Shown here piece after piece: positions 16,601 to 60,842 of a DNA stretch of 64,000 nt. The position numbers were made by a program, and so were the translations under genes. The notes under the pieces were generated by a model, which worked only from the letters and a program-made list of their open reading frames with translations, was not told the DNA's origin and searched no databases. Source of the DNA: Owenia fusiformis (lineage: Eukaryota; Annelida; Polychaeta; Sabellida; Oweniidae); the NCBI GenBank assembly GCA_903813345.2, contig CAIIXF020000006.1, positions 1,054,001 through 1,118,000 on the forward strand, written 5' to 3'. Each line of letters opens with the position of its first letter. Positions within the stretch are counted from its first letter, which is position 1.

Positions 16601-19600
16601 CTATCGACTAAAAATAAAATGCAACCAAAATACACATACCGTCGACTGAACGTCCATAATAGAAAATTATGTTAATCCTAGTATTCAGGTGGCTTATTAT
16701 CTAATATAGAATTTGTGAAAATAATAAGTTGAAGTATATTGCTCTCTTCTCTTGATTTCCATGAATACAACATAGTAGTTATGAAGTTCTGTGAATATAA
16801 TACTAAATAACCTATTTTAAGACACTCACCACTATCAGGTTTGTCTAAGGGAGACCTGGTCCTTGGGAGGGAGGCATCCGTATCACTGCTATCATCCGTG
16901 TAACGGGGCCCGGATGGCCGATCTTTCTGGCGACTCCGACGCTGAGACTCACGTTTGACATCACGTACTGTCTGTGCCTTTGCCTTTTCTTTAGGGAGGA
17001 TACCTATAACATATTAAAAATTGAAGTGTTTATTAGTTTTGTTTGATATTACTTCTGAAAGCCAATTGTTGTTTTTAACGTTTTACTATCTACGGGCTAA
17101 AGAGGGCAGGACTGATGAGACAAACTGAAGATATACATTGTTGAAAAATGGTCATAATTTTACTTTTATTTTTTCATTTTTAAATAAAAAGCATATCAAA
17201 ATTACTGCATGTTCAATTACTTCCATATTATTATTAAAGCCTGGGAACTTTCGTAATAAATGAAAACATTTGTGGAGTTATAAGCATATCTTTAATTCTT
17301 TGATTATATCATATAACAGGAACATAATAACTTCATTGTTGGTCAATAATTTATTGAACCCAACTGCCCTAAAACAATATTAGATAATATTATAATGCAG
17401 TCAACATAGAAACATACTGTAATCTTAAAGTCTATTGAAGCCTGTTTACAGAGAAAAAAAGCAAAACACACACGTTGGTAAAATTCCAAGCCTAAGTTGT
17501 CAAGGTTTACATTGCCATATACTTCATATTATGTTTATGTTTGTTTATGTTTATGTTTATTTCCTTTTTTAAATTCACACAAATATACAATGCATGAGTG
17601 GGTGACACTTTAAAAAGTGTATATTCCCAGCAACAGTATTATATATAATATTAATGCCATATACAGGCATTAAATTGCACAATTGAATACCAAATGACAA
17701 ATACTTCAACATCCAAGTTGTTCATATTAATTATATTTTGATATGTTTTGTGTTTTCTCATTTATACTAAATCGTACAGTTACAGTACACCCAAGGGGAT
17801 ATAAACAAAGCATCTATTTCTTATGCCCTAAATGGGATCTTCACAAAATATAAATTGATGTTCTAAGACTACAGTGTCACACTACCCTACCACGTGACCA
17901 TGTTTAAAAGGGAAACAGGGTACAGCTAAGTTGCAAATGGAGGACGTGGGTTTTATTCCATATTTCTGGACGTAAAATACATTTTACATTTATTTTTAGT
18001 GTTTTACCAGGCATAGAATTGATTCATCAAGCAGTTTATAGAATATTGTGGGCAAAAAAAACACTATAGGCAAAGATAGATAATAGTGGGCGCAGTGAAG
18101 CAAAATCGAATGCAATACACGATACATTTCAGTAAATCCATCAACGTACAGGGAGCATGTAAGTTTCCCTTCGAAAATGTTACATTGATATGTAACAAAA
18201 AACCACTCAACTGTTATTTGAACTGCGTGTCATCGTGTTATATGTGGATACGTTTTCCAGTATGTTATTCAACTGTATTTTTGTGAATTAACTGTTTTTC
18301 TAAAATCTTAAGATGCATAAAAAGTCGTCCCAGAAATGTATCTTTACTTTTTCGTAAGACATAACATATTGTGAAACATTTTTCCTCTTGTCACAAAGAG
18401 GATAATGTTTGTTTCGAGGTGTCTTGTGATGAGTGTTTCATGATTAAATGCAATATCACTGGAGCAGATACCATCCAAAAACATCTGACATTCAACACGT
18501 CATATAAGACTACATAGATCTGGTCTTACTTTTTTTTATAATAATAGAGAAATTCGACGCCATTCAGCAAATCGTGAAGAACAAAGTTGCTCCCAAGTCG
18601 TGGCATGATAGTATATTGAACAAAATATTTTAAATGATCGGTTTATGAGGACGGTAGTGAATAAGAGCATTCAAGGGGTTATATAGAAAGATTCCTCACA
18701 TGTAGTTCAGGCAATTTTAATTATTCTGAATAGCGGATAGTCATTAATACTGATAGCGGATAGTCATTTATCATAAACGTGTTCATATTTTATTTCGTTA
18801 TTTTATTTCAATTTGATACCATAGTAACACGTATAATCTAGCGTTCTTGTTAATTTAATGACTAAAATGCATATACGACCTGAAAGCCCGTGTCTAAATC
18901 TACAAAATAATGTTTACTTTATTTGGATTAAATAGCAATTGATGACAGGCGGCCTTTTTAGCATTATTTTCACTGTTTGCAACGTAAATGTACATGAGAT
19001 CGGGACATAGTATGTCTGTATAATCAGCTTACTTTCTCGCTCCTTGTACTATTGAACAATTTACATTCCTTGTACCCTGTATTGATCAACTTTTGCAACT
19101 GTGTACCGTGTACTATGACATATAAAATATTTTAAAATTTAAAACGATATTATTTACATTCTTTCTTCAACTATCATATAACTTGGAACATGGACTTCAC
19201 TATTGCACCACTGAAGTTCAGCGAATAGCAATATTGACTCACTCCGAGCACCAAACGTATTAACCTTTTGACTAAGCAGTCGATATACTTAAAAGCGACG
19301 TGGTTGAAAGCCAAAAAATTCGCGCATGCGCGATCGAGGTAGGGTAGTGTGAGTGTATAAGGTATCTGCAGACCAAGGTATGGCCTTATGCAAGCCTCTG
19401 AAAGATTGCCCATATGAAATCATTTCTGAAGGTATTGTGAAAGATTGCCCATATGTAATCATTTCTGAAGGTATTGTCATTTATTAATACTTGACAAAAT
19501 GCTGAAATGTTTTAGCTAGTATGTAGTATAGGAAAATGACTGTATTCATTATATGCAGTGGCAGCCTTATAGTAGGATATAAGCCTGCAATAACACAGGT

Positions 19601-60842: not shown

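Follow-up and report, generated by a model that had tools for sequence, protein, structure and literature searches.

The window analyzed here, a 64,000-nt stretch of the Owenia fusiformis genome, holds a minus-strand gene model that appears to enclose an array of plus-strand genes. The model of this host gene has nine exons, the last in two alternative forms. Its main form has eight splice junctions, each of them GT-AG and phase-compatible, and its reading frame is open over 627 or 604 residues depending on the last exon. From 5′ to 3′ on the minus strand, its parts and the evidence for each are as follows:

60742-60842, minus strand: internal host exon, phase 1 in and phase 0 out (AG acceptor, GT donor, open frame)
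59809-60025, minus strand: host exon directly upstream of the giant intron (splice model; top minus-strand exon of a host-free scan)
17004-59808, minus strand: giant host intron, phase 1, 42,805 nt (splice model)
16830-17003, minus strand: host exon directly downstream of the giant intron (splice model)
16343-16509, minus strand: host exon (splice model)
15278-15946, minus strand: largest host exon, Pro/Ser-rich (splice model; overlapped by a host-free scan candidate)
14348-14422, minus strand: host exon (splice model)
12758-12891, minus strand: host exon with a PLEKHA-like C-terminal motif (splice model and PLEKHA6 comparison; overlapped by a host-free scan candidate)
12014-12168, minus strand: host exon (splice model)
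9488-9678, minus strand: host last exon, form 1, then stop (splice model)
7687-7808, minus strand: host last exon, form 2 (alternative), same phase, then stop (splice model)

The seven other introns of the main model span 320-2,335 nt, with 4,205 nt before the alternative last exon. Since the first exon of the model starts at an acceptor, the gene should extend upstream of 60742-60842, probably past the end of the window. Upstream of the host exons, at 62489-63429, is a tandem repeat with a 162-bp unit and about six units.

The exon pair around the giant intron was called in the original prediction, and both exons are found where they had been placed: the minus strand reads TTCTATG/gtgagt at 59809 and ttatag/GTATCC at 17003. 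The claim that 59809-60025 and 16830-17003 join in phase also holds, the joined frame reading Phe-Tyr-Gly-Ile, and a phase match by itself has a 1-in-3 chance. To look at these exons independently of the host gene, we scanned the whole window using splice matrices from the four esterases described below and codon frequencies taken only from esterase copy 4 and the fifth open reading frame (ORF). The scan returned eight minus-strand candidates, the top one being exactly 59809-60025, and no candidates in either of two controls (reversed and complemented sequence). Two other candidates overlap host exons 15278-15946 and 12758-12891, three are antisense inside esterase exons, one (53195-53251) falls in intron 1 of esterase copy 4, and one (51021-51123) belongs to a tandem repeat in a spacer. 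The scan missed exon 16830-17003 as well as the other four internal host exons. From the splice geometry we infer that the host halves on either side of the 42,805-nt intron are spliced together.

When the host C-terminus was compared with a provisional sequence for part of human PLEKHA6, 26 of 56 positions were identical (E = 4e-8) and the score was 46.2 bits, against 31.6 for the best of 200 shuffles. The host is thus likely a PLEKHA4/5/6/7-type gene, an assignment as provisional as the reference sequence. These proteins have a PH domain and, in some members, WW domains, and the N-terminal host exons for a PH domain would lie past the window end. Exon 16830-17003 reached an E-value of 0.075 against the same fragment, and the two exons upstream of the giant intron had no significant match to it. 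Homology therefore does not bridge the intron gap, and the family call is by itself no proof that the host halves are one gene. Pfam searches with the joined host protein and with the C-terminus returned no family. An Amelogenin match in the upstream part of the protein (E = 0.037) fell below the Pfam cut-off and was disregarded, and 51 pattern matches of the large host exon in a collection of bacterial and archaeal species, none of them confirmed, have no bearing on animals.

Inside the giant intron, the plus strand carries four esterase genes and a fifth ORF:

19883-29700, plus strand: esterase copy 1, 10 exons, 583 aa (exon model)
32998-41085, plus strand: esterase copy 2, 10 exons, 584 aa (exon model)
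42875-50084, plus strand: esterase copy 3, 10 exons, 586 aa (exon model)
52692-57797, plus strand: esterase copy 4, 10 exons, 585 aa (exon model)
58562-59707, plus strand: fifth ORF, single exon, 381 codons and stop, N-terminal hydrophobic stretch (open frame)

Given a single host gene, the coding models of all five (19883-59707) are wholly inside 17004-59808. Nesting on the strand opposite to the host, as originally proposed, is supported by the splice model, the ranking of its splice sites, the exon scans and the esterase models together. What was said of the contents of the intron needs to be divided: four complete plus-strand esterase genes do lie between the two host exons, but the description of the fifth gene as kinase-like found no match in sequence searches.

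All 36 esterase introns are GT-AG, with a phase series identical across the four copies. The first exon, about 15 codons made up of an ATG and a hydrophobic stretch, was located through a block conserved in all four copies, and in copy 4 an upstream in-frame ATG at 52665 was dropped in favour of the ATG aligned in all of them. These blocks cover or lie just upstream of each first exon (19835-19952, 32843-33053, 42717-43004 and 52533-52821) and may include promoters. The Pfam family PF00135 (COesterase) scored above cut-off in all three of the esterase ORFs that were scanned, a single one from each of copies 1, 2 and 3. The only full protein searched against the PDB, copy 4, matched Ces2e with an E-value of 4.8e-90, and its other best solved matches were acylcarnitine hydrolase, a carboxylic ester hydrolase and liver carboxylesterase 1. 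In the Ces2e alignment, GESAG and DHADD of copy 4 pair with GESAG and DHGDE, and the acidic stretch VNDIE aligns only approximately with INNDE; we take the Ser, the acidic residue and the His of these motifs to be the catalytic residues. GESAG is found in all four copies, as are the hydrophobic first exon and a C-terminal KEEL. The hydrophobic exon may encode a secretory signal, and KEEL resembles an ER-retention signal, a kind of tail that CES enzymes have.

Across the six pairs of esterases, amino-acid identity is 81-88%, dS is 0.22-0.37 and dN/dS is 0.28-0.35 in every pair, with copies 1/2 and 3/4 being the closest pairs. The dN/dS values indicate that the four genes are under purifying selection. 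The divergence between copies 1/2 and copies 3/4 is uneven along the gene: the proportion of synonymous differences is 0.06-0.32 at alignment positions 1-240 and 481-600, is raised over positions 241-480 and peaks at 0.58-0.67 at positions 301-360. Low synonymous divergence at the ends would be expected if gene conversion had homogenised them. Within intron 2 of copy 1, open frames at 21232-22439 gave nothing above cut-off in Pfam but by their motifs read like the 3′ part of a LINE-type retrotransposon. A 39-bp tandem repeat follows copy 3 in two arrays (50187-50421 and 50876-51125).

Chance is a very improbable source of the fifth ORF, as about 2e-9 such runs of 386 stop-free codons are expected at the local base composition. 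The stretch FRDVKMDN...DLE gives it a kinase-like look by motif only, and the kinase label was left unsupported when sequence searches of Pfam, NCBIfam and the PDB returned no kinase. Pieces of the ORF had just sub-threshold matches to COG3_N and zinc-finger models in Pfam, and the predicted fold was unusable (mean pLDDT 35.2). Fifteen pattern matches in the bacterial and archaeal species collection, none confirmed, again have no bearing on animals. In the window, the sequence running from the end of copy 4 through the fifth ORF occurs once.

We consider it quite probable that a PLEKHA4/5/6/7-type gene on the minus strand acquired its giant intron through growth of the esterase array by duplication within it, with the nested genes independent of the host. 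The host would probably be the single invertebrate PLEKHA4/5/6/7-type gene, and its intron would once have contained one secreted or ER carboxylesterase gene on the opposite strand. Tandem duplication of the esterase unit, spacer included, could then have produced the four intact copies, while the fifth ORF would have stayed unduplicated at the upstream end of the intron. The start-to-start distances between the esterases are 13,115, 9,877 and 9,817 nt, which add up to 32.8 kb, so that three duplications would have enlarged the intron by about 33 kb and subtracting these additions leaves an intron of about 10 kb. The regions upstream of esterase exon 2 (spacer and intron 1) share similar blocks, which are collinear between copies 2 and 4 and between copies 3 and 4, and mostly so between copies 2 and 3, with each first exon lying within one. 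Tandem duplication of an already nested esterase is the simplest account. Two stretches do not fit simple tandem copying: block 30518-31134, next to copy 2, has an out-of-order match at copy 3 and may be a dispersed repeat, and the sequence before copy 1 (17004-19834) had no match to the other spacers at the threshold used.

The original prediction also raised the point that host pre-mRNA is antisense to the nested genes and could couple or interfere with their expression. In the coding models no esterase exon overlaps any host exon, so just the nascent host RNA is predicted to be antisense to the esterases. Most likely, each esterase would be its own transcription unit with its own promoter, and the nested genes as a group would work independently of the host. 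Any effect on the host would be generic transcriptional interference in cells where both are active. It is also possible that the nesting is functional, with transcription across the intron linking host and nested genes in a positive or an interfering way, and that this link is the reason the array stayed in the intron. Precedents can be found in two reports: in C. elegans the nested gene of the ceh-10/polq-1 pair induces a short host transcript (PMC12274878), and at H13/Mcts2 nested transcription promotes host intronic polyadenylation (PMC13309782), the strand relation being left aside in this comparison. Against it, local duplication alone explains both the array and the size of the intron, and the genes of the TipE cluster, which share a single intron, are reported to show poor correlation with the host gene (PMC3240667). 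On balance we think functional coupling unlikely.

What speaks for coupling at this locus itself is the position of the fifth ORF, which stops at 59707, 101 nt from the host exon, without an AATAAA or ATTAAA in between; the next such signals, at 60032 and 60039, are past that exon. The missing hexamer was set aside as weak evidence for an antisense overlap: with 66 plus-strand AATAAA in 42.8 kb a gap of this length is expected, there is a TATAAA at 59733, between the ORF stop and the host exon, and the sequence after the 60032 signal is poor in T and G. One exon-level antisense contact, the 3′ end of the fifth ORF transcript over host exon 59809-60025, is therefore no more than a possibility. 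That the mRNA in fact reaches 60032 or 60039, covers 59809-60025 in antisense and forms an exon-to-exon switch at the 5′ end of the intron seems to us a decidedly long shot. If true, transcription of the nested cluster would decide between splicing of the host exon and an early end of the host within the intron.

The nesting presupposes a single host, and the minus-strand exons could instead belong to two genes. The first would end just past 59809-60025, where read-through adds 18 more residues, the split glycine included, before a stop; the second would have an unseen first exon within the 42.8 kb, and the esterases would sit between genes and not within one. In keeping with this, no homology to the PLEKHA6 fragment spans the gap, there is a minus-strand ATTAAA at 59395, and 66 minus-strand AATAAA lie within the interval. 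When splice sites were scored by matrices built on 43 further introns in the window, the 17003 acceptor was weak, at rank 101 among 3,318 AG sites and just below the 10% quantile of the 43 training acceptors. The donor at 59809 is strong, however, at rank 11 among 3,584 minus-strand GT sites, and its phase agrees with that of the 17003 acceptor. Exon 16830-17003 lacks an in-frame Met, and its frame meets a stop immediately before the acceptor, so that it is not a coding first exon by itself.

Further exons in the interval were sought directly. A phase-restricted search yielded a single weak candidate of 48 nt. A looser scan, its codon table partly trained on esterase copy 4, found one minus-strand candidate (score 19.3), which is antisense within an esterase exon, and 24 on the plus strand, each of which falls on an esterase exon (19 of them exactly, five by overlap); its controls gave zero and one candidates, the latter scoring 23.5. 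Applied to the host intervals, the same scan recovered all eight internal host exons, seven of them exactly, with tables partly trained on them. No convincing extra host coding exon was thus found in 17004-59808 by scans that could miss a very short or non-coding exon, and a short first exon of a second gene could escape in the same way. With the donor, the phase and the structure of exon 16830-17003 all pointing to one host gene, we regard two genes as rather improbable. A misassembled contig, in which unrelated minus-strand exons flank the array by accident, is less credible by far: a tandem array is a place where an assembly may go wrong, but these esterase copies differ by enough synonymous change to be assembled apart, and both flanks are on the same strand with compatible phase.

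With one host gene taken as the preferred reading, the locus adds a case to the opposite-strand gene clusters already known within single introns. The closest is Flo-2 of the fly, where an 83.2-kb second intron following the first 16 codons contains twelve GMC oxidoreductase genes in the same direction and the unrelated CG14406, all opposite to the host, with the nesting reported in four insect species (PMC1891103). As at our locus, paralogous enzyme genes in one orientation are joined by one further gene in a huge intron of a host running the opposite way. The differences are that the enzyme and the host are not the same, that there are 12 GMC genes in the fly and four esterases here, that the present intron splits later coding sequence, and that the present nesting is read in one genome.

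The sodium-channel auxiliary TipE cluster is also similar in having five genes, four of one family and VhaM9.7-c, in one intron, the last of CG18675, a host that spans about 100 kb in Aedes; its genes are on mixed strands, and terminal exons of the host and TipE overlap, coding parts included, unlike the arrangement seen here (PMC3240667). NF1 likewise has several opposite-strand coding genes in one intron (OMG, EVI2A and EVI2B), which are fewer than at our locus and are not described in that report as a tandem array of one enzyme family (PMC4394429). The 567 opposite-nested gene pairs of C. elegans share the basic arrangement of a nested gene inside a host on the other strand, and they are reported to show lower average co-expression than neighbours, with both interference and host induction being discussed; there, each pair was analyzed separately and expression was measured, in contrast to the present locus (PMC12274878).

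No report of esterases nested in a host intron was found in the literature searched. The locus is of interest as an array of paralogous enzyme genes that apparently grew within another gene's intron on the opposite strand, and it illustrates how tandem gene duplication can lengthen an intron by tens of kilobases, with host and nested genes alike staying open. Should the nesting prove to be conserved, or to be coupled to expression of the host, it would provide a natural multi-copy test of transcriptional interference.

At the other end of the window, two plus-strand coding pieces are found at 1513-1821 and 2685-3053. The first matched the Pfam Ku family with an E-value of 0.0033, below the cut-off, and both pieces look like Ku70. 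The host gene may thus have a DNA-repair gene as its tail-to-tail neighbour.
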